DNA from: Cyprinodon diabolis
Lineage: Eukaryota > Chordata > Actinopteri > Cyprinodontiformes > Cyprinodontidae
Direction of reading: 5' to 3'
NCBI GenBank assembly: GCA_030533445.1
Contig: CM060080.1
Span: forward strand, 10,458,717 to 10,522,716
DNA: 64,000 bases
A program made the translations under genes and the position numbers. Below the pieces are notes generated by a model. The model searched no databases, was not told the DNA's origin, and was given only the letters and a program-made list of their open reading frames with translations. Shown here piece after piece: positions 4,311 through 50,889 of the stretch. Within the stretch, counting starts at the first letter, position 1; each line of letters begins with the position of its first letter.

Positions 4311-7300
4311 TTCATGCACGCACATGTCCTGCTTTAATCCAGTTTCTGACGAATGGAAGTGGGTCGAATTTTTCCAGAGGAGATCCGTTGAGGTCCACAA
4401 ACAGGAGTGAAGACCTGCGGTCTTTGCACAATCTGTTCCGCGTTGCCCGTGTTATTCACTGCGGAAAAACACATGGCTAATTTGCATACGCGAACAGGAT
4501 TGGCAGCTCAACTTGGCAAAAAACGTAACATATTTGTGAATAAAGGTTTTGAATTTTAATACTGGACTTGTTGAGCTTAACAACATTTTAGTGACCATTA
4601 GTGACAGAAAAATATTTATTTTTTTTATTTTTTTTGACACAATTTAAGACCCCCTTTTAATTTTGCTTTTGAGGCTTTCAGGGGGTCTCATGGGTTAAAT
4701 GGGGGGGCATCGAGCCGCCCCCGGACCCCCCCGTATTTCGCACTCTGATTTATACAATAACGCCCCATACACACACACTCACCCTTGGAACTATCCCACC
4801 CCTACATAAAGAACTTTCTCACACACGAACATTTGGAGGTAAAACAACTTGAGTTAATCAAGAACATTTGCTGTTAGGTTAATATATCTTTCACGGGCCA
4901 GATGAATCTTCTCAAAATAACAGTCCTCCCCTTCATGACATGAAGGAGGCTGTGTGAACTCATTCTTATCTTAAGCCTTTGAGGCTAAGAACAGAAACAT
5001 CTCAACCTTTTTTACTGCACAGATCCCAGAACAATACAGGAAATAAAGTGGTAAGCGACTTAGCTCACAATAAGATCGGTCTGTCAGATCTACTGGAACC
5101 ACTGAGAAACAGTACACATGTGCCCTGCTAGGGGGAATAGGTGGTGGAGACGGGTGTCGTAGTCAACAGTACCAAAGGGAGCTAACAAATCAAGAGTAAT
5201 TAGACAAGTTGAAGTCGAAATGATTCCTAATTCAGCCATCTACGTATGTTATGTTTATATTTGAGCTCAAAATATAATTGGTAGAACCTTTCTTTGAGAT
5301 TCTACTGCGGTATCGTCTCTGTAGTAACAGAAGCTCACCTCCCAGATCCAGCATTCAGGTCCAGTCTGTATTGGAGTGGCATCTGCAGTAATATCAATTT
5401 AGAACAAGTTAGAAACCGCACAGCCATTCAGCCTTCAAATACTTCCTAGTTGACCTGCACTGATTATAATTTCCATCAGTAGTGATACACATTGCATCTA
5501 TAACAGAAACAGTTGAGTTTAACACTTTTAGAGCAGGGAACACAGAAATTAGAGATGTCTCTGCAAATGAAGTTGACTGGAGAGCGAACCTGTTAGGCAG
5601 ATCTACTGTATGCATGCAGCGAAAATTTATTTGATCTACTTCTCTCCTAAAAGGAAAATTGCATGTGTGTTTTTTTTATTGCTCTTATGCAAATAAAATA
5701 CCATATTTAGTCGCCTTTTGCCTTTTGCAATTAATATCAACTGCCTGTATACCACATTATATTTCATCCATTGTAAAATTATTAAATTAATGAACAGAAA
5801 AAAAAACTGACTGGATGATTAGTGATCCTACTTTGTAAATCTTCTCTACAGCTATCCAAACATGTTCTTTGTTTTAAAAATAAAGATAATGTCAGTATTT
5901 GATATATAGGACCTCAATATTTTTGCAGAATTACGAAAACTTCCATTAGCAGTAATTTGATGGGCCTAATTAGATTCATTTGGCTCAAAACATTGACAGT
6001 TTTATGGAGCATTTGATGTCTGCTGTTTATGAAGGTGTCTTTCTGTGCCATTTGTTTCAGAGTTCGTGTTTAAGAGTAATGGATTCACTAATAAACAGTC
6101 ATGATGGGTGCTATGACAACTTTGTGAAACAAAAGCTGCAAAATGATTCAAGACTATGAAAATGAATACATCTTTGCCAACTTTTCGATCTCTTCTCAAC
6201 CAACCACTTAAACTGTCTGAAGTGTGAAAGAAAACCTGTCAGAGTAACGTGAAGAAAATCAACTGGTGACTTCTCTGCCATTGATCTCATGGTCTGTCTG
6301 TCCAACCCTACAAGTCTCTCTCTGTCATGTTTATAACATCTCAGCTCTCGGTGTCAACGTCCTCCCTACCCTGCCAATAGTTGCCTGTCTTATCCGTCTA
6401 TCAAAACGGCTGCTTGGCCCCACCCCTTTCTCCTCCATTAGTTCTAGACATAGAACCAGACAGCCCGCCTCTGCCCCTGGCTCCGACTATTGACTGGTTC
6501 TTACGGTAATGGGCATCTGTCTCCCCATTGTCTAATTGGCTAAGTGATGGGATTGATCCTCAGATTGTTCTCTAAGTTCATTTGGTGTGAGACCAGCAAG
6601 AGGCCTGCACTGTATAAGCTCAGAGCTGCTGGGAGCTGTGGAACACATTCACTGTAATGGCTCTGAAATTGATCAGCCTCAAACAAAGGTGGGATGGGCT
6701 GGATGCATTACAGCTGCAGGATGTTAGCAGAATGTTGATCAAGACTCATCATGGCTGTATAATACGTAAAGTTTGTACGTGTTCATAGCCTTATATATCA
6801 TTCTGGAGACAGACCTTTAAAATAAGGAAAATGAAAGCTGAGGACATAAATGACATTTAATCATAGACATGTTTGAAGAACTATAACATATCTATTTCAG
6901 GGATTCGTATTTTGAAATGAACTCTAAAGGTTTTGAAGTTTAAACCTCAAGAAAAAAACACAAATCAAATTAAGGAAGACAATGTCATCCCTGCTTATTG
7001 ACGACCTTTCCTCTTTTGGATTCTGGAATATGAGCTAACTTGGTTTACTGCCAGGAGAACATTACACTGTCCATATTTTTCCTTTCAACATTGCTCAAGA
7101 CATAACTTTTTTAAAGCAGATAATTATTAACAAAATTTCTAAGAATGCATTCAAATACTTTAGACTCTCATAGACAATATCTGCTCTATGCCTGCAGAGA
7201 CCCCTGATCATAGTGGGCAGTTATATATGACGAAATCAGTCACACACATTTGAGCAAGTGGACTCCTGATCCTATTTTGAATACAACTTTACTGAAGTTC

Positions 7301-8088: not shown

Positions 8089-8376
8089 CTTATATTGGAA
8101 AAACGATCTAGAAATAAGTAAAGCATTTCTTAAATTAAGTGTATTTCCCCTTAATTAGAGTAGATAAATGAGATAGTTTGACAATGCAATGAGTATTTCG
8201 ACTCATAAAATAAGATAGATAATATGCAAGTGAAATTGTTTCTTCTTATTTTAAGTATAAATTATCTTGTTCCATTGGCAAAATGTCTCTTTTATCTCCT
8301 CAATCCAAGAACAAATGCACTTATTTTAAGAAAAATCTACTTATCTATATTTAGATTTTTTTTCTTCCAATGTAAG
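8089..8376 (+). mobile_element. Foldback MITE, copy 1
   Basis: Termini CTTATATTGGAAAAA and (reverse complement of the other end) CTTACATTGGAAGAAAAA form terminal inverted repeats. The interior carries TAAATTAAGTGTATTTCCCCTTAATT and TTGTTCCATTGGCAAAATGTCTC, shared with copies at 9155-20064 (split), 22065-22359 and 24567-25156. The two halves are partly complementary to each other (ATTCCATTGGCAAA words), so the unit can fold on itself. It encodes nothing. Confidence 0.75.
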
Positions 8377-9154
8377 CTTTGAAATAACAAGGAGAAAAGC
8401 TTCAGGAACTTGGTCAGGTCACTGACCATCTGATTCTAATTGCCAAATCCCTCCTTCTTGGTTTCAGCTTCTTGAGAAGCCTTGCAAATTCAAAGTAGAT
8501 GAGAAAAACTGTAGTGGAGCTAAAGGGCCAGTTACACGCTGCAAAGAGAAGGAAGAGGAGGAGAGAGCAACACCAAACAATAGAGATGGATGCATGAACC
8601 CGAAATATCCATAATATCGATACCAAGTCGATATCATTATGCGATTGATATTGTTTTGTGGAGATCAGTACTTTAGTTTTAGATTTAGCCTCATATGCAC
8701 TGCTGCTGTTTGGTCTATAAGGCAGCATCCTGGTCGCCGCCACCAGGCTCACTGCTCTTTATCGGTGCAAAGTGAGAGCAGTTCTGCAAATGAGAGAACA
8801 GGCACAGAGTGAGGCCACGGAGGATTGTTGGGTTACTTTTGTAACATTAATTTTTTAATACATCTCGTACACTTATTTATTTTAGAAAACCCAGAAAGCA
8901 ACTGCACTCATAAGGAGAAATTTCTATTTCATGTGAGTATTGTAGTTACTTAACTCTGAGATTTTGATTTGATTTGTTTTGAAACTATGCTTTGCATCGT
9001 TTATTTATGAAAAATCCATCTTTTGTTTTTGTATTGATGCTTTTTATCATATTAATATCTTGTTATCAAAAATATCACATATTTACTTTGGCCAAAATAA
9101 TGAGAGGAAAAACCACAAAATCATCTAAAATAGAAGCTGGAAGATATACTAGCT
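8377..9154. other. Unassigned sequence
   Basis: No gene is supported. ATATCCATAATATCGATACC and GTCGATATCATT at 8610-8640 recall the ATCGATA-rich interior of the TIR element at 22739-23443 and may be a remnant of that family. The 112-codon minus frame at 8414-8752 has no recognisable domain. Confidence 0.3.
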
Positions 9155-9271
9155 TTAAATTGAGGAGGCAAGTGAGACACTTTGCAAATAAACAAGACCA
9201 TTTACATTTAAAAGAAGAAAAAGCTTTGGCATCGTCTTATTTCAAATATATATTATCTAATTATCTTATTT
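9155..9271 (-). mobile_element. Foldback MITE, copy 2, left half
   Basis: TTGAGGAGGCAAGTGAGACACTTTGC and CATCGTCTTATTTCAAATATATATT match the reverse-oriented copies at 22065 and 24926. The match stops after TAATTATCTTATTT at 9271 and resumes at 19936 with the same 14 bases. The two parts are thus one MITE split by the L1. The terminal about 55 bp on the left are diverged or lost. Confidence 0.8.
9258..9271 (+). repeat. 14-bp target-site duplication, left copy
   Basis: TAATTATCTTATTT occurs here and at 19936-19949, exactly at the two edges of the L1 insertion. In uninterrupted MITE copies the corresponding sequence (TAATCTTATTTTAAG) occurs once. Length and position fit target-primed reverse transcription. 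Confidence 0.9.
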
Positions 9272-9358
9272 ATTTTTTTATACAGTGTCCTGTCTGGCAA
9301 GGTGGCAATAAGAATAATTGTCTTGATGCCAAAAGGAGCCCAACAGATTTTACTTTCA

Positions 9359-9398
9359 CAAGTGTAGCGGTATGGCAATTGCCATACTGCTCCACTTG
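9359..9398. repeat. 40-bp near-perfect palindrome near the L1 3' end
   Basis: Arms CAAGTGTAGCGGTATGGCAA and TTGCCATACTGCTCCACTTG pair at 18 of 20 positions with no loop. The palindrome lies 88-127 bases from the 3' end of the element. Some LINE reverse transcriptases recognise a 3' stem-loop; whether this one does is inference. Confidence 0.85.
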
Positions 9399-10979
9399 TT
9401 TCATGCATATAAATTGCTTTATTATAATTATGCAGGGAGTTTTACAGTTCATATGGACACTGCAATGTAAGTAGAGCAGAAAAACAGAAGAAGAAAAAGG
9501 AAAAAGAAAAAGAAAAAAAAGGACAAAAGATGAAAGAAAGAGGAGATAGGAAGGAGACAATGACAAAACATTTTCAGTCTGCTTCATCACCTGTAACGAG
9601 ATGAAAAAAAGAACAGCACAACCAAAAGACACGGTACGAGATATACAATAAAGCAACACCTTGAAACTATCGCTAAAGTAATATTATTAAGTCTGACATG
9701 TACTCTGTGTTACCTAAAGATATGAATGTGGGGTTTCTGTTTGGAAGTGAATCTCTAAGTACCTGAAGCCTAGCACCTGTAGTTGTTTGTGAGGGTGAAC
9801 TTGTGCATGTAAAGTTTTAACCATAGAAAAAATGCTCAATAGTTGTTGTGGAGAGCCGGAGAGGCACACCCCCCAGAACACTGAGTACAGCGCCGGGAGA
9901 CCCAAAGCCCCAGGAGCCCAAAGGGACCCCAGAAGCAAAGGCACCAAGGAGGGGCCAGCCCCGGAAATCAGACCCCCACCAAGGGAGGAGGAGAGACAGC
10001 CACGAAGAAGCCCTCCAGCCACCGCCATGCCGGAGCCGCGCGGACGAGTCGGCGGGCCCCGCTGGCAGCCAGCCACCCTGAAGTAGGGCCGGGCACCGAA
10101 CACCGGGCACCGAACACCGGCCCCCCCACGGCACCGACCGAAACGCCCCAGCCCCACAGAGCACCGAAACACGCCCCGCCCCCCGGCACCAAGCCTCGGC
10201 AACCGGCCGCAACACCCACCGCGACCGCACCACCCAGGAAAAACACACAGACGGCCCCTCCTGCGGCCGGGGCCCATGTGCATCCGCCGCGAACCGGCCG
10301 CGAGCGCCGCGGGACCCCCCCAAAACGCCCCCCCGGCCAAAAGCGCAGCCCCACCCCACCAAGACTGATGCCAACAGCGCGCAACGCAACACACCGCGCA
10401 CAGAATCAACCCAAGAGCAGAAAAGCCGCCGGGCGCAAAACTGCAAGAAGAGCAGACCGCAGCCGGTGCAACCACCCCCCCCCCAGCAGCCCGAGGGGCA
10501 GCACAAAGCCAGAGCGGAGCGAACCATGCCGCTCCCCCACCGGACGAAGCCAAAGCAGCACAGCCACGTCCGCCGCCCGCACCAGGCCCTGACACGCAGC
10601 CAGAGCAGTTCCGCTGCCCCGGCCCCCCAACGCGCGCCGCCAGAGCCACTCCAACCCCCACCCGCGCCGCAGCCTCACCCGCCGCGATCAGTGGGAACAA
10701 AGCAGCTCCGCCATGCCTCCAAGAGGGAAAACCCACCCGAATACCCAATCAGCGCAGCCAGGCTGCCCACACCGGCCCCCCAACACCACCCCCGCCGGAG
10801 CCGCCCGGACCCCCACACACCAGCGGCGCGCCGCCAGCAGGCCCGCCCGCCCCCCGAGAAAACAGACATGCCAAACCCCCCCAAAAAAAGAAAAAAAAAA
10901 AACAAAAAAAAGGAGCCCCCACAATGCGACAGTGGACACCAGACACCGACCCGCCCGCAACCGCTCCCCCCCAACGAGG

Positions 10980-11065
10980 AAGAAAAAGAAAAAAAAAAGA
11001 AAAGATAAATAAATAAGTAAATAAATAAATTAATTAATAAATTAATAATTACAATTAAAATAAAT
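10980..11065. repeat. A-rich (AAAT)n tract 1 in the L1 3' region
   Basis: GAAAAAGAAAAAAAAAG is followed by ATAAATAAATAAGTAAATAA-type repeats and AATTAATTAATAA. It abruptly interrupts C-rich sequence on both sides. Confidence 0.9.
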
Positions 11066-11619
11066 ATGCAAGAGGAGAAATGCGAGCGGAAAAACCGGAG
11101 CCCAAAACAGGACCCAAGACTCGCACCCCACCATGCCGTGCAGCTCCCCTCCCCCCCTAACCGATACCACAGAACCGGCATAGGAAAAAACACCGCCCAG
11201 GAACAGGCATCATAGCGAAGGCACCGGCACCGACACCGAAAATCCCCGAACAACACCCAGCCCCACCCCGAAGTGGATAGAGTCCCGGGCCCCAGGGATC
11301 CGAGGCCCCAAGGGCACCCAACCCCCAGACAGGAGCCCCAGCAAAGCCCCGGCCGGCCGGGGCCAGCGGAGAGGCCGCCAGGAATGAGCCAGCAGCCCCC
11401 CGGGCATCCACCCCCAGACTCCGAGCTCCACCAGTGCACCGGTGAGCCCCGACGCCAGCCAGCGGAGGGAGAGCAGGACGGGGGGAATGGGCTTGAGATG
11501 TATTTGGGAGAGGGTGCGGTTGAGACCCCAACCTGGGAGAAAAAAAAAAGAAAAAAAAAACACACCATCTCAATCATGCCTTCCCTCCCTAATGTCCCCA
11601 CTCGTACCACAGAGAAAAA

Positions 11620-11628
11620 AAATAAATA

Positions 11629-11669
<41 letters not shown>

Positions 11670-11670
11670 G
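11620..11670. repeat. (ATA)n microsatellite, tract 2 in the L1 3' region
   Basis: Uninterrupted AAT/ATA trinucleotides sit between AAAAAAAATAAATAG and ATAAATAAAG, again inside C-rich sequence. Homopolymer A runs at 11540-11560 precede it. Confidence 0.9.
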
Positions 11671-12807
11671 AAAATAACAACGCGGACACACATTCACACA
11701 TAACACTCACATCCAATAATACCAGGACCAAAAACCCGGTGGCACCGGTGGTTGGTCCCGGGACTATCGGATGACCCAATAAGTAAACCTAAAATCCGGA
11801 TGTGGGGGGAGGTGAGCGGCGACACGCCACACCAACCCATCTCATTCCTGCTTCAAGCCCGGCCCCCCACCCCGCACACGGACCAGACCACCCCCAGCAA
11901 GAGCGGGACCGGGGCCCACCCATCCCGCGCCGGCCACCCAACCAGAACCTCCCCCCCCCGAAAAAAAAAAAAAAACGCTTCAACCAGGCACTTCATGCCC
12001 CTCCATCCAACCTTCTTTGGGGAGAGCAAAGGTGACAGCCCCGCCACCGGCAGGCAACCTAGGCCCCGCAGCCGGCCCCAGCCAAAACCACGGACCAGGT
12101 GGCTTGCTCTTCCTCCAGTTCCCAGACTCCGGGCGGCAGCCGGAGAACAGGGGTGTGAGAAGACCACGATCCTCCCTGCACCCGCTCGAATGTGGTGTTG
12201 TTGCGTGTTGCTCTCAGATGCAATTAAAACTGGGAGTACCAAGAGGGGGTGTCCGGCACAGTCCACCCCCCCTCCAGGAGATAGACGGTGCCAGCACACC
12301 CCCCCTTCGACAACCCTGAACCCTCAATGTCTAGATGCGAGAGGGGATGGAGGAGGCCGACCGTGGTGAGGCCCATAAAATAAGCCCCCCCCCCCGGTGG
12401 CCCTGACCCCCACCCCCCAAAAATGCCCTACATAGATGTGTGTTTTGAAAATGATGTAGATGGAAGTGTCTAAAATGCAAAATAAAATTGGGGTGGGGGA
12501 CGTCATCAGAAGGTGTGGCCCTCCAGTAACGACCCCCTCCCCAAAAACCTACATGTGTGGCAGAGTGATGGAGCAGGCAGAGGGAGGATTTCGGGGATGG
12601 GGAGCAAAGGACTGGGGTGCTTGCTGCACTCCAAGGGAGCCAGCTCCCCCGCTGACTCCAATAGGCACCCCCGTTCCCCGAGAGCCCCTCCAGAGAGGGG
12701 GGCCCCACCAGTTTCACCACCGTAGCCCGGGGGCACGGGACCGGCAGCAGGACCCACCAGCCAGCCGGGCACGGAGCCGACACCACCAGCCTCCCCCCAT
12801 CCTGTCC

Positions 12808-12940
12808 ATCCAAAAAAATAAATAAATAAATAACAAAATAAATAAAAATAAATAAATTAATTAAAAAAAATAAATAATAATAATAACAATAATAATTAAA
12901 ATAAAAAAAAAATAATAATGATAAATAAATAAATAAAGGG
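12808..12940. repeat. A-rich (AAAT)n tract 3 in the L1 3' region
   Basis: About 130 bases of AAAT, AATT and AAT words with almost no G or C. They begin right after CCATCCAAAAAAATAAAT and end at a GGGGGGGCC run. Confidence 0.9.
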
Positions 12941-13640
12941 GGGGCCAGCCGGCCAGCCCACGCGCAACACACAGAGCCCCCACCCCGGACGAAGCCCCAC
13001 CAGGGGGCAGCACGGACCAGGACCAAGACAGGGAGCCAGACCCGAAGCCCTTCCAAGATCTTCTTCCCACTATCACCACCCTTCACCCCCCCTCCAGAGA
13101 TCTAATCCCTCCCCTACAATAACAATCAAGCTACTCACCACACAAGCAACAGAAGACATCCAGGCCGAGATCATATCTACTCCCCCTCCCTCCCCTTCCC
13201 CCACTTACAGAGTGCAAACCCGTGAGGGGGTAAGCATTTGCCATAGGTGTTAATGTCCATGCCCCCCCCTGCCCAACAGGCCCCGAGGCACCCCGGCACA
13301 CCAGAGGCCGTGGCAGCAGGGGCAGACAGCCGGGCGTACACCGGCCCAGACCCCAAGCAGCACTCCCCACAGAACCCGAACCCCCAAAACCCCACCGGGG
13401 CCCCTGCCCAAGGGTAACGCGCCCCAGGGATCCCAGACCCCAGGACCCACCCCAGACCCACCCTGCAGTAGGGCCGGGCAATGCCCAAAAACCCCCGGTG
13501 CCAGCGCCCCACCCCGACACCGGCCCCCGAACGACTCCCCCCCAACACCGGTCCCACAACACCAATCCGTAGAAGAAGAAAGCCACACAACACAGCAAAT
13601 CCAAGTTCCGACTTCCCCGCCCACAACCCCACTCCCACAC

Positions 13641-13685
13641 ATAAAAAAAATAAAAATAAAAAAAATAAATAAATAATTATAATAA
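13641..13685. repeat. A-rich (AAAT)n tract 4 in the L1 3' region
   Basis: AAAAAAAATAAAAATAAAA followed by AAATAAATAAATAATTATAA separates two C-rich blocks. It is shorter than tracts 1 and 3. Confidence 0.9.
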
Positions 13686-14831
13686 TCTCCCCCTCACTGA
13701 AGAAGAACGGCCGCAAACAAGCCAGTGCCCAACACCCACCGCCACACAGCGAGGACCTCCACCCAGATGCTCCTCCCCAGAAAAGTCAACATGCCTGCCC
13801 TCCCAGGAGACAAGCAAGCCCGCCGAACAGGAAGCCCTCCGGCAGCGCACCGCTGGCATGCGGGGGCCTGAGCGGCCCCAAAAGAAACAACACCGGAAGG
13901 CCGATATGGACGAACCGACGGCACCAACCAAGCCCCCAGGCGGATTCCCCCACCCAAAAACACAACGAAACCACTCCGCCCCCACCGACCACAGCAAGCA
14001 CTGCCGCAAGGCAAAGCAAAGGACAGAGCAGCCCCACCCGTCGCACGCCAGAGAGCCAGAGCAGCAAGGCCGCCCCAGCCGCCAGAAGCCGGCACAAGCA
14101 GCAAAAAGAAAGCAGCAGACTCGACCCCACCGCTCCCGCTGCGCCCGGCGCGAAAGCAGCATGACCCACCCCGCTCCGGCCCCGCACCGCCCACGGGCCG
14201 CTGAGAGGAGGACGGCCACGCCGGCCACGGCCCGCCCCCCCCCGCCGCCAAATACCGAGCAACCCTCCACTCCCAAACCGCGCAAGATGCACCGCAACAC
14301 GCGCCACCGGCACCCGTCCCAACAGAGCGAAGCCACACCCCCGACCCGGGGGCACTCCAAAGGGACCCCCCGACGCCCGCAACCAGCCCACAACAGATAC
14401 ACATGAACCCCGGCCACAGGCGCGACCACCCACACACCCCCCCGGACGACGCAACCACGGCAAGCGCCACGGCCAACCACCGAAACCCGGCACCGAAAGA
14501 CAAGGCACGCCCCGACGCCCCGCAGAGCAGAAGCACCCCGGCCAGCACCACAAAAGAACCGATGCCCGGCGCCCAGCCCCACCCAGCAGCAGCACAGCTA
14601 CCAGGCCGGTAGCCCACGTCCGCCACCACGGAACCCCCCAAGAGCACCGCACGCAGCCGCCGCAGGACCCCCCCCGAGGTGACCCAGACTATACCCCGAT
14701 GGGTGCAACAGTCCCCTGGGCCATACCCGCCAGGCACCCCGCTCCGAGCACCCCCCCGAGCCCCCAGGACCCAAGGACCCCCGAACTAGCCCCCGCGCCC
14801 CATAAGACGCACCCCACAGCCCCCCACTACA

Positions 14832-17800
14832 CTAAGTGATGGAGCAGTTCAAGGGAGCCCAGAGAGATCGGTCTGATGGGGATGCAGATGCTGTCTCAAG
14901 ATTAATATGATCCAACAACAGATCTCTGTAGTGATTGATGTTGAGTTTATCCTTACTTTTCCGATTCATGAGGATAGTTTTCTTTGCGATACATAATGCA
15001 GTAAATGCCATGCAAACTGATTTTTTTCCCATAGAGCTTCCCTCAAAGTCACCCAGCAAGCATACTGGAGGAAAATTGGGATTTTACAACCCAGGCACAG
15101 TGATAGATCCTTACATACCTGTACCCAGAATCTCTGAACCGGCGTGCATAACCATAACGCGTGAAAATAATTATCAAGTTGATTGTCTGTGGACAGATGT
15201 TAGATTGCGCAAAACCCATCTTGAATAATCTTTGACCTGTATAGTGCACTCTGTGGAGGATTTTGTATTGTATTAATTGTAAATTGAGGTTTCTAGTCAT
15301 GTTAAAAGTTCTTAGACATATCTGAGCCCAGATGTTTTGTTCAAAGCTGACTGATAAATCCTCCTCCCATTTAGTAATAGGAAGAGATATTGTATCATCC
15401 ATTTTAGTCAGTGTCCTGTATAGTTTAGACAGTAGTTTGGGGGGGTTAACTCTAGAAACTCTGATATTTTAGTTGGAATTATTAAACCTCCATCAATATG
15501 CTTAAATTTATTTCTAATTATAGCTTTGATTTGCTCATATTCCAAGAATTTATTTTTGTTAATGCCATATTGCAAATTCAATCTAGCAAATGTGATAAAC
15601 TCCGTACCTTCAGACAAATGATCCAGATATGTAATACCTTTATTCTTCCAGTACGGAAAGTTTATCACATTATTGTTTTGTAGAATGTCAGGGTTATTCC
15701 AGATGGGTGTACGACTGCACGGGATAAGTGATGACTTCGTTATTTTTAGAAATTCCCACCATGCTGTCAGGGAAGAGCTGATGTTAATATTTTTAAAACA
15801 TGGGTGCCGTTTGATCTTAGAGCTAATAAACGGCATATCTGAAATTATGATATTACTGCATATATCCTGTTCTATGTCTATCCAGGGCTCATCTAAGGGA
15901 TTATGTTTTATCCATTTAGAGATGTATTCGAATCTATTTGCTAAATAGTAGTGTTGGAAGTTAGGTAAATCTAGTCCCCCTGTGTCTTTAGTTTTCTGTA
16001 GTGTTTTTAAGCTGATACGAGGGGGTTTGTCCTTCCAAAGAAATTTAGAGATGGAAGAATCTAGAGATTTAAACCATTCGGTTGATGGTTTATTTGGGAT
16101 CATTGAAAATAGCTAGTTAATTCTGGGTAAGACCATCATTTTAGTTGAGGCTACCCGACCCATAAGGGAGATCAGAAGCGATTTCCATCTTTCTAGGTCC
16201 TCTTCTATTTTCTTTAAAAGAGGGATGTGGTTGAGTTTTGGTAGCTCAGCTAGTTTAGATGACACAGTAATTCCCAAATATTTGATATTTCCTGATTGCA
16301 ATTGTAGACCTAAGGGAATCTGTAGAGAGCAATTAATTGGTAGTATTACAGATTTAGACCAATTAATAGAGTATTCTGAGACTTTTGAGAAAGATTCTAG
16401 TAAACTAATCACTTGAGAGAGGCAAGTGTTTGAGTGCTGGAGATAAAGTAATACATCATCTGCGTAAAGACTAATTTTATGCTCTATTTTCATGCCTTTT
16501 ATACCTTTAATCATATTTGTTTGTCTGATTGTAGCAGCCAGAGGCTCAATAAAAATAGCAAAAAGTGAGGGGGAGAGTGGGCATCCCTGTCTGGTGCCCC
16601 TCTGGAGACAAAAGCTGGAAGATGTTTGATTATTTGTCCTGACACAAGCTGTTGGGAAGCTGTATAATATTTTTAACCAATTTATAAAGGAATTGCCAAA
16701 GCCAAATTTATGTAGAGTAGCAAATTAAAATTTCCAGTTTACTCTATCGAATGCTTTTTCTGCATCTAAAGACAATATATAGGATTTAAGATTTTTGCTG
16801 TAGGAATAATCTATTAAATTCAGCAGTCTGCGTGTGTTAGCAGCTGACTGCCTTCCTTTAATGAAACCAGTTTGATCAGGGTGGATTATGAGAGGAGTGA
16901 TTATATGTAATCGTTTTGCTAAAGCTTTACAGGTTATTTTAATATCCACATTAATTAAGGATATGGGACGATAGCTGGTCGAAAACATAGGATCTTTGCC
17001 TGGTTTAAGCAGGAGACTAATGGTGGCAGAATTCATATTAACTGGAAATTGGCCATTATCTAGAGTTTCCTGCAGCATTCTGTGGAACGTTGGGGCCAGA
17101 ATGTCCCAGAACTCTTTATAGAACTCAGTAGGGAACCCATCTGGACCTGGCGCTTTATTGTTTGGCATGCTTTTTAATGCTTCCTGAACTTCAGCTGTAG
17201 ACAGCGGTGAGTCCAGGGTCGCTCTTTGACTCTCTGATAATTTAGGAAGAGTTATTTTATCCAGAAATCGCTTAATATCATTATCTGATGGATTTAACTG
17301 TGATGTGTATAAAGATTTATAGAAATCTCGGAAGGCATTGTTAATATCCTCCGGATCCTGTAATGTATTACCAATTGAATCTGTAACTGCAAATATAGTC
17401 GTTTTTTTCTTTGTTTATTTTTAGCTGATTAGCTAAGAAACTTCCTGACTTATTGCTATGTTCAAAGTTGTCAATTCGAAGTCTTTGAATTAAAAATTTA
17501 TTTTGTTTTTCAATAAATTCGTTTAGTTCTAGTTTTATTTTACGGATTTCCCCTAATTTTTTCTCATCTAGCGAGCTTTCTAGTAACTTTATTTTTCCCT
17601 CTAATTCCTGGAACTTTTTTTGTTCTAACTTTTTTTGATGAGATGATAATGAAATAATTTTACCTCTCATCACTGCTTTCCCTGCTTCCCACAGTATAGA
17701 TGCTGATGTTCCTGGTAAATCATTGCACACCAAGTATGATGCCCACTCTTCCTTGAAAAATTTGAGAAACTCTTCATCTTTAAGCAGTGATGTATTTAAT

Positions 17801-18549
17801 CTCCAGCTTTTGTTTTGTGGGGCTATTTTTTTATTTATTAGGGTTAAAGTAACAGGAGCATGATCACTGACAGCAATAGGATGGATTACAGCATCTGAGA
17901 CATTAGACAGCAGCGAGCTGCTGATTAGGAAATAGTCCAAACGAGAGTAGGAATGATGGACATTAGAAAAGAAAGTGTATTCCTTACTGTTAGGATGAAG
18001 AGATCGCCATGCATCGCAAAGACCAAAATCACTCATGTATTGTTTGACTACGTTTAATGATTGCCAACTGCGCTGGGTCCCTGTTGTATTCAACCTGTCC
18101 ATTTCTCCATTTAGACCAAAGTTGAGGTCACCCCCAATAATTAGAGAACAGTCCCCGTGCTTTGAAAGTGCATGAAAAACTTTGTGGAAGAATGAGGGGT
18201 CGTCAACATTTAGACCATATATGCTTACAATACACAACTTTTGGTTATAAATAGATATTTTAATCATGATGAATCTGCCTTCAGGATCTATAATTTTGTC
18301 TAATAAAGTAAAACTGAGGTTTTTGTGGATTAAAATTGCTACTCCTCTCTGTCTAGAGTTATAGCAGGCGGCAAACACATCAGGGAACTCAGGGGAGTTA
18401 AGATCACTTATAGATGCCGCTGATTTATGGGTTTCTTGCAATAAGACAACATCTGCATTTAATCTTTTAAGCTGGTTAAAAATCTTAAGCTGTTTCTCTC
18501 TGGTGCCAGCTCCATGCACATTCCATGTCACAAACCTTACATTCACCAT
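14832..18549 (-). pseudogene. L1 ORF2: AP-endonuclease and reverse transcriptase, broken
   Basis: The 18549-17368 segment (ATG at 18549) is an AP-type endonuclease with N10, E39, SIYG around Y111, GGDLNF (D141, N143), D205 and SDH (D229, H230) all present. The reverse transcriptase follows: NNKAPGPDGFPTEFY near 17165, SLDAEKAFDR near 16750, and the YADD catalytic box at 16455-16466. A C-terminal part follows, with LHRVHYTGQRLFKMGF near 15250 and a last open segment 15059-14832. Breaks seen: a frame change near the T-run at 17402-17408, in-frame stops at 16725-16727 and 16113-16115, a frame change at the G-run near 15439-15445, and another between 15150 and 15059. The protein would nick target DNA and copy the L1 RNA; this copy cannot make it whole. 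Confidence 0.9.
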
Positions 18550-18881
18550 AGGTGTGAGTGAGAAGATGAAAAGTACATGCCTCTGAATAAATAGTTATGC
18601 CTAGACCCAGGTAGCATCAAACCGTGTGCTTGTGATTGTGTGGACCACAGGGAAGAAGCAGACGAATAAGGAAAAGGAAGACAGAAAATTAAGAGAGTGC
18701 AATGAGTAAGAAAAGGTGAAAGAAGAAGAACCCCAGCCCATGCATTCTGTAACCAGCTGTAACTAGCAGTCATACCGTTCAAACGTGCTCTAGAGCTGTG
18801 CATATATTTCATTTATCATCGTGAAATGTTCTATACACTTTAATCAGGTGTCACATGCTTTTAAACCCGCCTGTTGTGCAT

Positions 18882-19761
18882 CTAATAAAGCCAAGGAGTG
18901 ATCTTCTGATCCCTGAACAACTGACCATTAATATAAAGTTTGTCAACTGCTACTGTAGCTCTGACGCCTTCACTGATGTATTTCTTCCTGATTGGGAATA
19001 ACGCTCGCCTGCGATCTAATATTTCCTTTGGATACTGGTCATTGACACTGAAATCTGTTCCTCTCAGCTCTCTGCCCTGACTCCTGACCTGCTCTTTCTG
19101 CTTGTGATGCTCAAACTTAGCTACAATTGGTCTAGGACGGGATTATTCAGGCTTCTTACCTCCGAGCCGGTGAACGCGATGGAATGTTTTTTACCTGGTC
19201 CGCCGGGATTTTCACCTTCTTCTGGAGGAACTCACGTACTATCGTCTCAGGGTCCTCGTCCTGCTGTTCAGCGATTCTAGCGAAGACGAGATTGTCTCTC
19301 ATGCTCCTCGACTGAATGTCCAGAATGGATTCCTTCATCTTTCTATTTTCGCCGGACAGCTGGATCATCCCGTCGGCGAGTTTGGTGACTTCCCCCTTCA
19401 GTGCTTCATTCTCTGCGGTGACGGAGGCCAGCTGAGCTTGGCTGAATTCCAGCGACTCTCTCAAAGCTTGAAACTCCTTATGCAGGACTTCTACCAGGGC
19501 AAGGCGGGCGTCCAAGCTAGTTAGCTTTTTGTCGATGGATTCCAGGACGTCGCTGTAGCTCCTGTCTGGAGACAAAGTAGATGTAGAAGCAGCACTCGTT
19601 GAACTAGACCGACATCGTTTGGTAGACGGTGTGTTTGTGGATGTGGGATTCCTCGGCTTCCCCATTACGATGTTGTCAAAACACTCGTCCAGGTAGCTCT
19701 CCAGGCTCGTCAAGGTCTCGTCTTCCAGTTTGTTCCCTCGGAAATACGGTACAATTGTCAA
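18882..19761 (-). pseudogene. L1 ORF1: coiled-coil RNA-binding protein, broken
   Basis: The open part (19761-19156, 201 codons) has no ATG at its first codon. The first in-frame ATG is at 19665 (MGKPRNPTSTN...), the likeliest start. Features in order: an S/T-rich N-terminus, a heptad-like coiled coil (about residues 65-135: ALVEVLHKEFQALRESLEF and onward), then the start of an RRM-like domain (RDNLVFARIAEQQDED). A frame change near 19184-19195 and a stop near 19142 break it. Homologous C-terminal sequence (PRPIVAKFEHHKQKE, then RRALFPIRKKY) continues to a TAG at 18882. L1 ORF1 proteins are trimeric RNA chaperones that package the element RNA. ORF1 and ORF2 are about 330 bases apart. Confidence 0.8.
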
Positions 19762-19935
19762 AGTTTAAATCTGCTTGTTTTATTTACATTTATTGGCTTA
19801 CTTACCAGGACTGGAATTGTTTGTTTTGAATTACCTGCATGTCGCCATTTTTACTTACGCACACGCACACAGCTCTCGCGAGATCTCAGCCGCTCATCCT
19901 CCTAACCCTAACACTACAGGGTTTCATACCTATAG
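19762..19935 (-). promoter_or_regulatory. L1 5'UTR with YY1-like and TCTCGCGAGA motifs
   Basis: Read on the minus strand from the 5' end, the UTR contains the perfect palindrome TCTCGCGAGA (19874-19883) and AAAAATGGCGAC (19841-19852), a good match to the YY1 core. YY1 sites near the 5' end position transcription of mammalian L1. TCTCGCGAGA is a known promoter-proximal motif of TATA-less vertebrate genes. Both lie within about 95 bases of the element start. That they act as the promoter here is inference. Confidence 0.5.
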
Positions 19936-20064
19936 TAATTATCTTATTTTAAGGGTAAAAATACTCATTCCATTGTCAAATCATCTTATTTACTTACTCA
20001 AATTAAGGGTAAATAGGGCTAAATTTAAGAAATGTTGACTTATTTCTGGGTCATTTTTGCAGTG
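19936..20064 (-). mobile_element. Foldback MITE, copy 2, right half
   Basis: It starts with the duplicated TAATTATCTTATTT and continues TTAAGGGTAAAAATACTCATTCC to TTTTTGCAGTG at 20064. It supplies exactly the half missing from 9155-9271. The end CAGTG matches the CACTG start seen in copy 3. Confidence 0.85.
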
Positions 20065-20182
20065 CCCATACACAGTTTGAACCTGAGTATAACAAATGTT
20101 AATTTTAAATGTTATTATAGTTTGTAAAAACACCACAATAAACTATTTGATCTACAATACTTCCTGAATCCATGTTACTATA

Positions 20183-21403
20183 CACTCACCGGCCACTTTA
20201 TTAGGTACACCTGTCCAACTGCTCGTTAACACTTAATTTCTAAGCAGCCAATCACATGGCGGCAACTCAGTGCAATTAGGCATGTAGACATGGTCAAGAC
20301 AATCTCCTGCAGTTCAAACCGAGCATCAGTATGGGGAAGAAAGGTGATTTGAGTGACTTTGAACGTGGCATGATTGTTGGTGCCAGAAGGGCTGGTCTGA
20401 GTATTTCAGAAACTGCTGATCTACTGGGATTTTCACGCACAACCATCTCTAGGGTTTACAGAGAATGGTCCGAAAAATAAAAAACATCCAGTGAGCGGCA
20501 GTTCTGTGGGCGGAAATGCCTTGTTGATGCCAGAGGTCAGAGGAGAATGGCCAGACTGGTTCGAGCTGATAGAAGGGCAACAGTGACTCAAATAACCACC
20601 CGTTACAACCAAGGTGGGCAGAAGAGCATCTCTGAACGCACAGTACGTCGAACTTTGAGGCAGATGGGCTACAGCAGAAGAAGACCACACCGGGTACCAC
20701 TCCTTTCAGCTAAGAACAGGAAACTGAGGCTACAATTTGCACAAGCTCATCAAAATTGGACAATAGAAGATTGGAAAAACTTTGCCTGGTCTCATGAGTC
20801 TCGATTTCTGCTGCGACATTCGGATGGTAGGGTCAGAATTTGGCGTCTACAACATGAAAGCATGGATCCATCCTGCCTTGTATCAACGGTTCAGGCTGGT
20901 GGTGGTGGTTTCATGGTCTGGGGAATATTTTCTTGGCACTCTTTGGGCCCCTTGGTACCAATTGAGTATTGTTGCAACGCCACAGCCTACCTGAGTATTG
21001 TTGCTGACCATGTCCATCCCTTTATGACCACAATGTACCAAACTTCTGATGGCTACTTTCAGCAGGATAATGCACCATGTCATAAAGCTGGAATCATCTC
21101 AGACTGGTTTCTTGAACCTGACAATGAGTTCACTGTACTCAAATGGCCTCCACAGTCACCAGATCTCAATCGAATAGAGCATCTTTGGGATGTGGTGGAA
21201 CGGGAGATTCGCATCATGGATGTGCAGCCGACAAATCTGCGGCAACTGCGTGATGCCATCATGTCAATATGGACCAAACTCCCTGAGGAATGCTTCCAGC
21301 ACCTTGTTGAATCTATGCCACGAAGAATTGAGGCAGTTCTGAAGGCAAAAGGGGGTCCAACCCGTTACTAGCATGGGGTACCTGATAAAGTGGCCGGTGA
21401 GTG
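20183..21403 (+). mobile_element. Tc1/mariner transposon, complete ends, 1221 bp
   Basis: Both ends read CACTCACCGGCCACTTTAT inward, with TA dinucleotides outside (20181-20182 and 21404-21405), the Tc1/mariner target duplication. The transposase reading frame fills most of the element. End similarity and the mostly open frame suggest a fairly young copy, but the transposase is disabled, so it could move only with enzyme from elsewhere. Confidence 0.95.
20331..21371 (+). pseudogene. Tc1-like transposase with nonsense and catalytic mutations
   Basis: From ATG 20331 one frame runs 346 codons to the stop at 21371, interrupted only by TAA at codon 50 (20478-20480). The N-terminal helix-turn-helix (about residues 10-48, SISETADLLGFSRTTISRVY) and a second DNA-binding region (residues 73-115) bind the ends. 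The catalytic core should carry Asp, Asp, Glu. The first is His here (AWSHESRF, codon 155, CAT), the second is intact (QQDNAPCH, D246), and the Glu is intact (E283), although the preceding NP is NR. Second Asp and Glu are 36 residues apart, not the usual 34. An internal ATG at 20547 gives a 274-codon product lacking the first DNA-binding domain. Confidence 0.93.
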
Positions 21404-22064: not shown

Positions 22065-22359
22065 CACTGCAAAAAAAATGTAATCTAAATGAGTCATTTT
22101 TTTTCTTAAAACAAGTGCATTTTTATTTGAATTGAGGAGGCGAGACACTGTGCCAATGGAACAAGACAATATACATTTGAAATAAGAGAAAACAATAGCA
22201 TTGTCTTATTTCAAGTGCATATTATCTAATTAATATTTGAAGAGTAAAATACACTAATTCCATTGTCAATTAATCTTATTTACCATACCTACTCAAATTA
22301 AGGGTAAATACACTTAATCTAAGAAATTTTTACTTATTTAGAAATAATTTTTTGCTGTG
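22065..22359 (-). mobile_element. Foldback MITE, copy 3
   Basis: CACTGCAAAAAAAATG at the left and TTTTTTGCTGTG at the right form the ends; length is 295 bp. The interior reads TTGAGGAGGCGAGACACTG, then AACAAGACAATATACATTTG, then TCAAATTAAGGGTAAATACAC, in the same order as copy 2. CACTG...CAGTG ends would fit a hAT-type MITE, but I see no clean 8-bp target duplication. Confidence 0.8.
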
Positions 22360-24566: not shown

Positions 24567-25156
24567 ACGTTGGGAAAAAAATCAAAATCTAGATAAGTAA
24601 TTTTTTCTTAAAATAAGCACATTAACACTACAAAAACAATCTAGAAATAAGTAAAAATGTCTTAAATTAAGTGTCTTTACCCTTAATTTGAGTAGGTATG
24701 TAAGAGGATTTGCCAATGCAATTAGTATTTTTACTCCTAAAATAAGACAATCAGATAAAATTCACTTGAAATAAGACAATGTAATTGTTTTTTCTTATTT
24801 TAGATTAAATTAGATTAAATTATCTTGTTCCATTGGCAAAGTGTCTGACTTACCTCCTCAATTCAAGAAAAAATGCACTTATTTTAAGAAAGAGTGACTT
24901 ATTACTTATTACTTTTTTTACAGTGTATTTTTGAATTGAGGAGATGAGACATTTTGCCATTGGAACAAGACAATTTAGATTTAAAATAAAAAACACAATT
25001 GCATTGTCTTATTTCAGGTGCATATTTTCTAATAATCTTATTTTAAGAGTAAAAATACTCATTCCATTGGCAAACTATCTCACTTACCTATTCAAATCAA
25101 GGGTAAATACTCTTAATTTAGATATTTTTACTTATTGCTAGATTGTTTTTTCAGAG
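24567..25156 (-). mobile_element. Foldback MITE, copy 4, interrupted by copy 5
   Basis: Reverse-oriented copy: ATCTAGATAAGTAATTTTTTC to GCACATTAA (left part, to 24625), then TATTTTTGAATTGAGGAGATGAG to TTTTTTCAGAG (right part, from 24926). The two parts are separated exactly by a complete forward copy of the same family. Confidence 0.75.
24626..24925 (+). mobile_element. Foldback MITE, copy 5, nested in copy 4
   Basis: CACTACAAAAACAATCTAG at the left and CTTTTTTTACAGTG at the right define a 300-bp unit in forward orientation. The interior contains TAAATTAAGTGTCTTTACCC and TTGTTCCATTGGCAAAGTG. Insertion of one family member into another shows that this one is the younger. A clear target duplication was not found. 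Confidence 0.8.
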
Positions 25157-43364: not shown

Positions 43365-44515
43365 TGTTATCGGCGCCAGCCCTAGGGGTAAGCTGGGCGG
43401 CAGCAAGTGGCACACAGCTAGCGTAGGCTGTGTTGCCTAAAACAAAGTCTCTGGCTGTAGGTCTGTGGACAGATGAGGGAGACACGTTAACAGACCATAG
43501 ATCATTTACTTCTGACACTTAACACAATTATCACATTCACACATCCATACAATAGACAATAATCCATAAAATAACAACACAATAAATAATAACAATTAAA
43601 TTAAAACCAATACACATAGTTGACAAAATGTAAAAAGTACAAATAATAAAATATAGACTTTAAATAATAACACAATAAATAATAGCAGTTAAATTAAAAC
43701 CAATACACATAATTAACAAAATGTAAAAAGTAGAAATAATAACATATAGACTTTAAATAAAATACAATTCACATCAATTATAAAATATATCAAAAAGACA
43801 ATACAATAACATTAAACACGTTTCCTCACTTTAATATCATTCTATCATTGCAGCAAAGTGCTTATTTTACTTGTTAGTGCCAAAAAACACTATCATCACG
43901 TCACTTCCGCTCTCACTCACATACACACACAGAAGCGCGGAGCTAGATCAAAAGAAAAGCACCTCCGAATGGCGGGCTGAACCACTAACACCCAACATGG
44001 CGGTCTCAATAACCCGAACACAGACGCTCATTTGCGCCAAAACCACGCTCAAGCTTATGTGAGCACGCCAGAAACCTATCCACAGAGCACACACCGGCTC
44101 CATACGTCGGTTTCACACCACCAAACCATCCGCAATCAGCAAAGCGACCACACGAAACGGCGGAGGCACACACACACTACAAAACGCACTGATACTTCGT
44201 CCTTAAGTTTTTAGAAACAGCAACCGTTTCACCAGTGTTTCCACACTAACACACACTCATCTACATGTTATCAGGACCACGTTTAAGTTCACATATTTTA
44301 TGTTTTATCGACATACCTGTGGACAGATGAGGGAGACACGTTAACAGACCATAGCTCATTTACTTCACAGTGGCGCAACTGCACCCTCTGCTGGAGTGGA
44401 TGTACACAGGGACCTTTACTATATAGAGTACACATTAGTATTGCAATACAAAAAAAAGAGGGGGTGTCTGTTTTCATAAAAACTTATAATATAGCGTTTT
44501 TTTCAACCTACTACA
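43365..44515 (-). repeat. 3' LTR, 1151 bp
   Basis: In plus coordinates it begins TGTTATCGGCGCC and ends CAACCTACTACA. It is collinear with the 5' LTR, with about eleven base differences and a 33-bp deletion at 44366. The internal 53-bp direct repeat is present in slightly altered form (43463 and 44317), as is the 93-bp tandem duplication (43576 and 43669). Confidence 0.95.
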
Positions 44516-44530
44516 CTCTCCCCTGCTTCA
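44516..44530 (-). other. Polypurine tract
   Basis: Directly before the 3' LTR the minus strand reads GAAGCAGGGGAGAG, a purine-rich stretch at the position where plus-strand DNA synthesis is primed. Confidence 0.85.
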
Positions 44531-44643
44531 AGAGATGACTCCGGCATCTTGTACTAAAGTGTATAGTCAGGTCAACATACAGTCAGTGTCAGCATGTATG
44601 GTCCTCTAATAATGTCAAAAGAGTACTAACTCTCGTCACAAGT

Positions 44644-47424: not shown

Positions 47425-47700
47425 TTCTCCCTGGTTCTCGGTCTCTAAGCTGGTAAACTGCTTCTAGGTCTTTGGGGTCTATCTGGACACCTTCGTTAGT
47501 CAAAAGACGACCTACATACCTAATCTGTCTCTTAAACAGTTCACACTTGTTAGGACGTAACTTAACACCATGTTCTCTAAGCCTATGTAGAATACGTCTC
47601 AGGTCATCTACGTGGTCAGAGAAAGTCTTAGAGTAACAACATGTCATCTAAGTAGGGAGAACAACACTCATCCCTTAACTCCTCAAGTACTCCTTCCATA
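47345..47700 (-). pseudogene. Reverse transcriptase middle part, between frameshifts
   Basis: A YLDDM-coding stretch lies near 47650-47664 and is out of frame with both neighbours. The next open piece, 47647-47345 (100 codons), carries the palm-thumb sequence DHVDDLRRILHRLREHGVKL and FKRQIRYVGRLL. It loses frame again near 47430, where the long RNase H-integrase frame takes over. Three frame changes within 330 bases destroy the polymerase. Confidence 0.85.
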
Positions 47701-49348
47701 CATCTTTGAAACGCTGCTGGGGCATTGGTAAGGCCAAATGGGAGACGGTCCACTCATATAACCCCCAAGGTGTGCTAAAAGCGGTGAGATGTTTGGAATT
47801 TTCTTCCACGAACCCTTGGTGGTAAGCACTGCCTTGGTCGAGTATTGAGAACCACGAGTAGCCTCCCAAGTTATCCAACAGGTCTTGGATGCGGGGGAGT
47901 GGGTGACGGTCAGGGATGGTTTTGCGGTTTAATCCCCTAAAGTCGACACACAAGCGTAAAGACATGTCCTTTTTTCTGACACAGACCACTGGTGAGGAGT
48001 ACGGAGATGTGGACTTCCTAATCCAGCCATGGTTGAGCAGCTTTTGGACATAATCTTTCACCTCCTTGTACAAAGGTTTGGGAATTGAGTTGTACGATGT
48101 TTGGACTGGTTTATTGTCGGTAAGATTGATTTTGAGTTGCAAACTTGGAATACAGCCAATGTCTGACTCAGTTTGGGCAAAAACATCAGACTCTTCAAAC
48201 AACATTTCTTTTACTACTCTCTGCTCATGTTCTTCAAGGTGGGACAAATCGACAGTTGGATGCCATCTTTGAGTTGTATTCTTTGTCTGGCATTTGTCAT
48301 TGTTTGTCTGATTGTGACTTGGGTTCACACATGGTTGGGACTCGGAAATATCTGAAGCACAGTTGACAGGTCTTATTTCAGTAACTTCTTCTAATGTGCC
48401 AAGAACAGTTCTCTTTGGAAGGTAAATTTCATGTTTAGTGGTGTTCTGTACAGGGATTTTTACAGTCTTTGTTGAACCACTAGGTACATCTACTAATGCA
48501 GTGAATAAATCTAAACCATCAGGACAGTAGCTTTCTACGATAGGCTGAAAGAACATTGCCCCGCCTGCTGGCAATTCTCTTATTCTGCAGCAAATTTCAC
48601 AAATTTGACCTGGATGGACCATGACACCCTTTTTACCAGTTTTAACATTACACTCTATGCGGTTGTCAGCTGGTGGCGAAATCTCAAGTGTGGACACTAA
48701 AGCTTTAGCTGTACTGTCATTAACACTTAAAGCTTCTCTGAGTAAATCTGTGATATGAGAGTCATTGTCTTTGTTAGCTCTGATTATCTCAGCAATAACA
48801 TTACTGCCTAAGATGGGGTGATTAAGACAGTTCTGAGTGACTAGAATAGGGACTTGAATAGCGACATGCCCATAATTCTTACTTAGAATTTGGAGCTCTA
48901 TGTCTACCCATCCTTCAAACGGAACATTTGTGCCGTTTGCAGCAGAGATTTCCAGTGGTTTGTCTGACAGGAGAGATTCAAGGGGTTGAATGGGAACATT
49001 GGGTAATGTCTTTTTCATCCAGTTTTCTCCCACCATTGTCACTTGGGCTCCTGAATCAAGTAGCATTTGAATTGGAGCTCCATTGAGAGCACATGAAACC
49101 ATGCATCTTTTACCTATGAGCTGTGCAAGTCTCTTCCGTGGTGAAGGTTGAGTTGACTTTGTAGTTTTCAGATGACTCTTGGATGGGGGCGCATGGGCTG
49201 TCCCGGTCACTGGCTGCCCCTCTCCAGCGACCTCTTCACGTTTCCTGACACCTTCGGTTGTAAACAGCCTATGGCCCTGTGTCCTGCTTGGCCACACACA
49301 AAACAATGTTGACAAGAAGTTTTGTTTTGTCGTACACAAGATTTGCAT
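47675..49348 (-). pseudogene. Ty3/gypsy protease and N-terminal reverse transcriptase
   Basis: An open frame of 557 codons overlaps the end of gag by 142 bases and lies in the -1 frame relative to it, as for pol genes expressed by -1 frameshifting; I found no convincing slippery heptamer. The aspartic protease has LLDSGAQ (D98). The RT starts around residue 410, with SPVVCVRKKD, LCVDFRGLN and FSILDQGSAYHQ (motif A Asp present). The frame is lost near 47755, just before the region that should lead into the catalytic YLDD box. The true start is unknown, since the frame begins without ATG. Confidence 0.88.
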
Positions 49349-50819: not shown

Positions 50820-50869
50820 CAAACGCTGAACTTGCACTTCTCACCAGGCAGTAGCTTCACTCCAAAAGA

Positions 50870-50887
50870 ATCCCGGACGAGCCCCCA
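50870..50887 (-). other. Primer-binding site, proline tRNA type
   Basis: On the minus strand, two bases after the LTR, lies TGGGGGCTCGTCCGGGAT, 18 bases complementary to the 3' end of tRNA-Pro. This is where minus-strand cDNA synthesis would start. The same 18-base site is used by murine leukaemia-type retroviruses. Confidence 0.92.
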
Positions 50888-50889
50888 AT

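Follow-up and report, generated by a model that had tools for sequence, protein, structure and literature searches.

G-rich 3' untranslated regions (3'UTRs) recur among L1 retrotransposons and are still poorly explained. The 3'UTR of the naked mole-rat L1 is required for retrotransposition and its G-quadruplexes modulate the process (PMC7952902). With the human L1 3'UTR as the template, purified human ORF2p gave mostly short products, with a length as for a template without the G-quadruplex part (PMC10830416). Deletions at G-quadruplexes in Caenorhabditis elegans have preferred 3' junctions, are mostly larger than 100 bp and need polymerase theta-mediated joining (PMC4654259). In the L1 studied here, found in a 64,000-nucleotide stretch of the Cyprinodon diabolis genome (the window), the G-rich trait has grown to about 5 kb, and one genome contains hundreds of candidate copies. 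Among the matches listed in our literature search, whose coverage left out many journals and Repbase, there was no fish L1 with such a 3'UTR.

The insertion and its coding part

Positions 9272-19935 of the window are a single L1 insertion, flanked by a 14-bp target site duplication (TAATTATCTTATTT) whose two copies lie at 9258-9271 (3' side) and 19936-19949 (5' side). The target repeat has three paralogues elsewhere in the window that lack the insertion (near 22.1-22.4, 24.6-24.9, and 24.9-25.2 kb). The joined flanks align with these across the junction, with small indels only, and the coding part and the G-rich part are therefore one inserted unit, as the original prediction had held from the duplication that encloses them. 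Its reading that ORF2 stops at 14832 and that the element continues to 9272 with an A-rich tail was likewise confirmed, the stop codon occupying 14832-14834. With a probe from the 5' end, the six best other matches begin at query positions 32-37 and one lower match begins at 26, so that about the first 31 bases (19905-19935, minus strand), which the best other copies do not have, look private to this insertion; TTAGGGTTAGG at 19901-19911 straddles the inner edge of these extra bases.

On the minus strand, ORF1 is a frameshifted remnant (18882-19665; putative ATG at 19665, stop codon at 18882-18884), and ORF2 (14832-18549), for the endonuclease and reverse transcriptase, is also broken; as both are split into separate frames, the window copy is dead. 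ORF2 has Pfam matches to Exo_endo_phos and RVT_1, the best PDB match of its endonuclease and reverse transcriptase pieces is human LINE-1 ORF2p (E values of 1.6e-47 and of 4e-29 to 1e-28), and the nearest named proteins to the endonuclease are from cichlids. Judged from these matches, an APE-type endonuclease and a reverse transcriptase closest to those of L1 place the element in the L1 clade. The sole Pfam match of the N-terminal part of ORF1, to Rab11-FIP3, is under its cutoff and is taken as probable coiled-coil similarity, and the C-terminal 79 amino acids matched nothing in Pfam or PDB.

The family has the hallmarks of target-primed reverse transcription, i.e., target duplications of variable length, poly(A), and frequent 5' truncation. 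Among the 25 copies with their 5' edge inside the examined stretch, nine (L012, L013, L021, L022, L023, L025, L026, L031, and L033) have duplications of 10-17 bp, not of low complexity, that abut both ends, in L022 with 13 bases of filler. A clear duplication is also present in the window copy and in L027, and in the other 15 copies it is absent or ambiguous.

The G-rich block as the 3' untranslated region

In the window copy, as in other copies, ORF2 is separated from the 3' end by a G-rich block of about 4.96 kb (9877-14831, minus strand; 38.5% G and 23.0% C), whose composition contrasts sharply with both neighboring regions. The original prediction of a G-rich region of about 5.5 kb holds for this block but not for the last approximately 600 bases (9272-9876, minus strand), the 3' end with the A-rich tail, which at 15.9% G is not G-rich. 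Inside the block are AT-rich (TTTA)n-type tracts on the minus strand, at 12812-12937 and further at 11005-11066, 11630-11664, and 13641-13669. It has 11 G-quadruplex-type motifs in the sense direction and none in the antisense direction, a number that follows base composition, since dinucleotide shuffles yield 9.4 ± 2.8. Nothing was found in Rfam for window positions 8500-20500. When the element was compared with itself, the matches were chiefly between AT tracts, with little internal repetition, and this comparison gave no sign of a nested element bounded by target duplications of its own. A weak internal match in the block joins positions 5479-5862 and 9097-9461 (z = 4.8).

Over the last 601 bp, all 40 genomic matches scored among 2782 candidates (window copy included) are 97-100% identical. 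A stem-loop is predicted about 20 nt before the tail (9303-9331, minus strand), with 5 bp, a 2x2 internal loop, 4 bp, and a 7-nt loop, both in the window copy and in an older copy, L046. A 42-nt near-palindrome (hairpin; 9358-9399, minus strand) was considered as an ancient signal and rejected, as it is not kept in L046.

The block was found behind ORF2 and before the 3' end elsewhere, which agrees with the earlier suggestion of a giant 3'UTR in this fish L1 lineage. Directly behind ORF2, all seven copies examined (7 of 39 other scored matches, 3 of the 7 overlapping with copies sampled by other routes) enter the G-rich block, and all eight copies examined from the same final 3' end (8 of 39 others) run back into it. 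No direct passage from ORF2 to the 3' end occurs in the seven copies within 1.5 kb behind ORF2. In L027, no gap of at least 60 bp interrupts the sequence from within ORF2 to the 3' end, and the target duplication is 9 bp long. Long stretches of the block are covered gap-free in L017, L027, and L036, and insertions whose truncation lies within the block or ORF2 possess target duplications of their own. It is thus supported that the block is the 3'UTR of the family and part of the inserted unit.

The sharp contrast in composition with both neighbors would also suit an independent G-rich sequence, a satellite or another mobile element, nested in the L1. Nesting private to the window copy is excluded because the seven and eight examined copies share the block, which leaves an ancestral addition. 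Diverged copies hold parts of the block, some as a shorter version, and in L046 the 3' end follows the ORF2 stop after only about 1.1 kb, in which three collinear G-rich pieces remain. The shorter version common to older copies has about 1.25 kb less between element positions ~8550 and ~9790, and part of the block may therefore be a later addition or have been lost. By coordinates, the spacing in 11 copies is short by 90-1578 bp in 6, within 60 bp of the window copy in 4, and longer by 1259 bp in 1. A partial addition would fit the missing 1.25 kb, but the position of the block in all copies examined at either end, the scarcity of internal repeats, and the target duplications of insertions ending within it make a nested sequence a most improbable origin.

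Long open frames are present in the block on both strands, as would be expected if it were coding or if pieces missing from other copies were spliced introns. However, four block frames had no Pfam match, the one frame used as a query had no homologue, indels in the block show no bias toward multiples of 3 (160 of 868), and a GT-AG reading is possible at 0 of 27 clean junctions (below), so that we find neither version credible.

Missing pieces and their origin

In our sample (39 loci of 2-10 kb and 8 of 4 kb), 18 of 28 copies lack block pieces of 92-1686 bp, and one or more gaps occur in six of the seven copies that extend across the full block. Over all loci, gaps of at least 60 bp number 30 in 110.8 kb of block, compared with 1 in 17.2 kb of ORF2 and 1 in 15.2 kb of the 3' end (binomial P = 0.015), counts that omit the events of L010 (in the AT microsatellite) and of L033 and L034 (AT- or T-rich low-complexity matches); with these events kept, there are 35 gaps in 21 of 28 copies (P = 0.006). 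Six of the 30 gaps are larger than 1 kb, the largest being 2.4 kb. The edges differ from copy to copy, and this private loss of differing block pieces across copies is new here, with the qualification that some absences are not private because older copies have in common a reduced form of one part of it.

Twenty-seven junctions are clean, 26 of them in the block. Their microhomology is 0-6 bases with a mean of 1.96, compared to 0.93 ± 0.22 in simulations with the same procedure, of which 0 of 300 reached the observed value. In a clustering test picked after the positions had been seen (25 junctions and 17 truncation points), the 3' gap edges cluster, with 10 pairs within 15 nt versus about 3 expected (P = 0.0007-0.003), and the 5' gap edges are scattered, with 3 pairs versus 2.5-3.0 expected (P = 0.43-0.57); when low-complexity events were kept in, edge clustering gave 13 pairs versus 5.2. 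Truncation points form 4 pairs within 15 nt versus about 1.1 expected (P = 0.025-0.03), a clustering that fades with a 25-nt limit (P = 0.10-0.12), and they lie weakly near 3' gap edges (P = 0.08). No enrichment of G or G-runs was seen in the 30 nt around the edges relative to random block places (based on 34 gaps and 18 truncation points, of which some are spurious), and G-runs are, if anything, scarcer on the 3' side of the 3' gap edges. Since the edges carry no extra G or G-runs, a G-quadruplex at each stall remains putative.

We consider it probable that the block is a genuine, transcribed, and retrotransposed L1 3'UTR in which the reverse transcriptase stalls and then stops or jumps upstream. 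The RNA would have the order 5'UTR-ORF1-ORF2-5 kb G-rich block-0.6 kb conserved 3' end-poly(A). Beginning at the tail, target-primed reverse transcription would have to copy 5 kb of G-rich template before reaching ORF2. The enzyme would stall often, at preferred sites; a stall followed by a stop would give a 5'-truncated insertion, and a stall followed by re-priming at a more upstream site of that RNA, usually at one to a few homologous bases, would give an insertion missing a piece. We infer that the block is transcribed, that it is the L1 reverse transcriptase that stalls, at insertion, and not a later DNA polymerase, and that G-quadruplexes are the cause.

It could also be that the block is the 3'UTR but that its pieces were lost after insertion, through stalling of DNA replication at the G-rich strand, followed by microhomology-mediated joining of the polymerase theta type. 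Such loss predicts the same polarity, with the G strand as the template, and microhomology, and the gaps are private, as later losses would be. Gap density climbs weakly and not significantly with 3'-end divergence (rho = 0.23, P = 0.28, n = 24), a correlation that decides neither for nor against loss with age. However, such deletions are very rare in wild-type worms (about 1e-5 per replication round; PMC4654259), truncation points, which are made at insertion, cluster too, and a fifth of the gaps exceed 1 kb, and we therefore regard postinsertion loss as rather unlikely.

Differences between copies could furthermore be errors of sequencing or assembly. DNA rich in G and in homopolymers is hard to sequence, and small indels are about three times denser in the block (868 in 89.5 kb) than in ORF2 (47 in 14.5 kb). 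Substitutions are also higher in the block (4.42% versus 2.29% in ORF2), and since this excess comes partly from misaligned AT tracts and CpG sites, and private changes in mid-block (about 1% per copy) are similar to those in the 3' end, we do not claim faster evolution of the block. Errors would not be expected to produce large gaps that have private junctions and lie in insertions with target duplications outside them, nor would they readily leave three copies gap-free over long block stretches, and with substitutions raised as well, if partly through misalignment, this explanation is very unlikely.

Implications and relation to known systems

This genome is in effect a large assay of L1 reverse transcriptase on a G-rich template, with truncations and gaps that can be mapped to single bases. 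A further question is what leads an element to retain a template that seems hard for its own enzyme to copy. One speculative answer, which we think unlikely to be right, is that the giant G-rich 3'UTR is kept for a function in cis and that copies losing pieces, as many new insertions would, fail as sources, so that the full block persists. In that case the RNA would need the block in spite of its cost and of repeated damage by reverse transcription, and possible roles would be nuclear export, protection from restriction, or retention of ORF2p by G-quadruplexes.

The element resembles human L1 in its ORF2 pieces, target duplications, poly(A), 5' truncation, and G-rich stretch in the 3'UTR. The human 3'UTR, however, measures about 200 bp and has a polypurine tract (PMC5135761), whereas that of the fish element is about 5.6 kb, equal in length to the coding part, and carries many private gaps. 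A comparable length is not described for the naked mole-rat L1 3'UTR in the available part of PMC7952902. Like stringent-type LINEs (R2, SART1, zebrafish ZfL2, and some plant L1s), the fish element has a predicted stem-loop just before the tail, and this is near the stringent-type consensus, in which a loop of 7 nt has an internal loop 4 bp beneath it (PMC5135761), but here it stands 5 kb behind the coding part. In stringent-type LINEs, such a stem-loop is required by the reverse transcriptase and shared with a SINE. The gaps share preferred 3' junctions and the polarity of the G-rich strand with the deletions of dog-1/FANCJ-deficient C. elegans, where joining is by polymerase theta (PMC4654259). 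Those deletions, however, arise at single motifs under a replication defect, whereas the gaps described here recur in numerous copies of a single retroelement, in an animal presumed to be normal.

A single insertion with a long 3′UTR

The L1 lies on the minus strand, from 19935 to 9272 (10,664 bp), with a 14-bp target duplication on both sides. Its target was a dispersed repeat, three uninserted copies of which are found elsewhere in the same window, and when the flanks of the L1 were joined, the junction was crossed by alignments to all three with small indels only. Together with the duplication, these empty-site alignments indicate that the coding part, the G-rich part, and the 3′ end arrived together, bearing out the original prediction that they form one duplication-bounded unit. 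ORF1 and ORF2 are both broken in this copy. The endonuclease and reverse transcriptase pieces have human LINE-1 ORF2p as their best match among solved structures, and three cichlid proteins (72 to 78% identity, 60 to 99% of the piece covered) are among the named proteins nearest to the endonuclease piece.

The G-rich block (9877-14831) was also found in other copies of the family. A 1-kb mid-block probe gave 40 scored matches, the window's own copy among them, with 90 to 100% identity over 840 to 1,001 of 1,001 bases. We fetched 20 of the 39 others, which were thus chosen for an intact middle, together with the first 8 of 39 other matches to the last 601 bp and the first 7 of 39 other matches to the last kilobase of ORF2 (L019, L027, and L030 recur from other sampling). 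ORF2 ran directly into the block in all seven ORF2-end copies, gap free to element position 5712 or beyond, and the 3′ end was continuous with the block in all eight 3′-end copies. The 3′ end proper (element positions 10621 to 10663) was reached by 17 of the 20 mid-block copies; one of the others ends within the 3′ end, at 10162 (L009), and two pass into other sequence before it (L020 and L028). Thus, the first of the two explanations originally offered, a giant 3′UTR of this L1 lineage, stands: the block is almost certainly a genuine 3′UTR, and this is an L1 with a 3′UTR as long as its own coding part. First-look candidates, whose numbers are not copy counts, fell from 2,782 with the 3′-end probe to 607 mid-block, 341 at the ORF2 end, and 135 at the 5′ end, showing the usual L1 fall-off towards the 5′ end.

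Copies of the dispersed repeat lie at 8099-8363, 19936-20064, 22071-22339, and 24626-25136, one of them holding the L1. The window also contains a Tc1-like transposase frame at 20481-21371 (plus strand; 296 amino acids, HTH_Tnp_Tc3_2 and DDE_3, open from stop to stop) and an LTR retrotransposon at 43365-52077, with LTRs at 43365-44515 and 50890-52077 (98.3% identical over about 1 kb), a 93-bp tandem repeat within each LTR, and, between the LTRs, reading frames for RT_RNaseH and integrase domains.

Truncated and older copies

Target duplications were surveyed in 25 copies whose 5′ edge lay inside the fetched stretch. Nine had a duplication of 10 to 17 bp that abutted both ends and was not low-complexity, L027 had one of 9 bp, and in the remaining 15, it was absent, short, at some distance, or low-complexity. 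In six of these nine (L012, L021, L022, L023, L031, and L033), the truncation falls within the block, which indicates that block pieces with the 3′ end also insert without ORF2. Two different insertions have telomere-like bases of the TTAGGGTTAGG type at their 5′ junctions, at 19901-19911 in the window and at oriented 4486-4498 in L022, where they sit between target duplication and element; these may be filler. At the 5′ junction of L034 (oriented about 2621-2729), a T run between the flank and the truncated 5′ end might be an added homopolymer or a rearranged tail.

A diverged copy (about 75 to 81% identical) that runs across the block's border with the 3′ end adjoins L026. Used as a probe, this fragment gave 2,684 first-look candidates, and 39 others were scored (79 to 90% identical). 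By hand count, 23 of these 39 had a piece like about 8490-8549 (element positions) at, or at most about 110 bases from, a part like about 9850-10260, and by coordinates, C24:32097859-32098671 and C6:27972499-27973277 cover in about 0.8 kb the span that takes 2.07 kb here. The short spans and close-set pieces point to an older subfamily without about 1.25 kb between about 8550 and 9790. The older copy L046 has only about 1.1 kb from ORF2 to the 3′ end, holding three collinear block pieces. In L045 and L047, ORF2 is followed at once by G-rich sequence; both soon leave the block and show weaker scattered matches farther on. Judged from these sequences, the block is old in the L1 lineage, but its length varies. 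Eight older copies of the 3′ part lie in C24 at 30.5 to 32.1 Mb and three more on the small contigs C698, C794, and C795; all match about equally (82 to 84%), as if a segment had multiplied there.

Gaps in the G-rich block

Beyond the long 3′UTR itself, we find that the block carries gaps that are private, polar, and microhomologous. Leaving out microsatellite differences and two low-complexity matches, 18 of 28 copies (L009 to L036) lacked at least one block piece of at least 60 bp relative to the window copy, and all usable loci together gave 30 such gaps of 92 to 2,410 bp (median, 330 bp). ORF2 (17.2 kb) and the 3′ end (15.2 kb) held one gap each, against the 30 in 110.8 kb of block (P = 0.015); gaps in the middle of the block are undercounted because 20 copies had been selected by an intact middle. 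Chained matches showed no block insertion of at least 60 bp in any copy, and the window copy therefore looks complete in the block. On the other hand, L041 and L042 depart from the element into other sequence at 6341 and 6248, and one unfetched copy is, by coordinates, 1,259 bp longer than the window copy. No junction was common to two copies with both edges within 8 nt; L014 and L025 were the sole pair within 10 nt, and their junction sequences differ. Junction microhomology was 0 to 6 bases (mean, 1.96 versus 0.93 simulated). Introns were rejected, as 0 of 27 junctions were GT-AG. Within ORF2, L016 has a 0.79-kb insertion (oriented 2075-2863) with long inverted ends, read by eye, that is probably a DNA transposon.

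In a test picked after the positions had been seen, the 3′ edges of 25 gaps clustered (at about 8860, 9300, 9595, and 9985) and their 5′ edges did not. Clustering was also seen among the 5′ truncation points of other copies, one group of which, at 6612-6623, lies next to a gap edge (6627). An enzyme moving 3′ to 5′ on the G-rich strand that stalled at certain places and then resumed or stopped would give clustered 3′ edges, scattered 5′ edges, and clustered truncation points. Both the L1 reverse transcriptase, reading its own RNA, and a DNA polymerase, reading the G-rich strand, would be expected to leave this pattern; we somewhat favor the loss of block pieces during reverse transcription. 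In PMC10830416, purified human L1 ORF2p on the human L1 3′UTR gave mostly short products, of the length expected from a template without the G-quadruplex part. A simple G-quadruplex account is weakened here, since neither G nor G-runs were enriched at gap and truncation edges and G-quadruplex motifs in the block were not commoner than in shuffles.

The 3′ end

Across copies, the last 600 bp or so had the lowest divergence within the 3′UTR, and the last 329 nt folded better than 100 of 100 shuffles (z = −3.5). The likely layout from the 3′ terminus is a recognition signal with poly(A), 5 kb of G-rich RNA, and then the genes. The putative recognition signal is a stem-loop at 9303-9331, predicted from the folds of the window copy and of the older copy L046, which resembles the stem-loops described (PMC5135761) for LINEs that recognize their own 3′ end.
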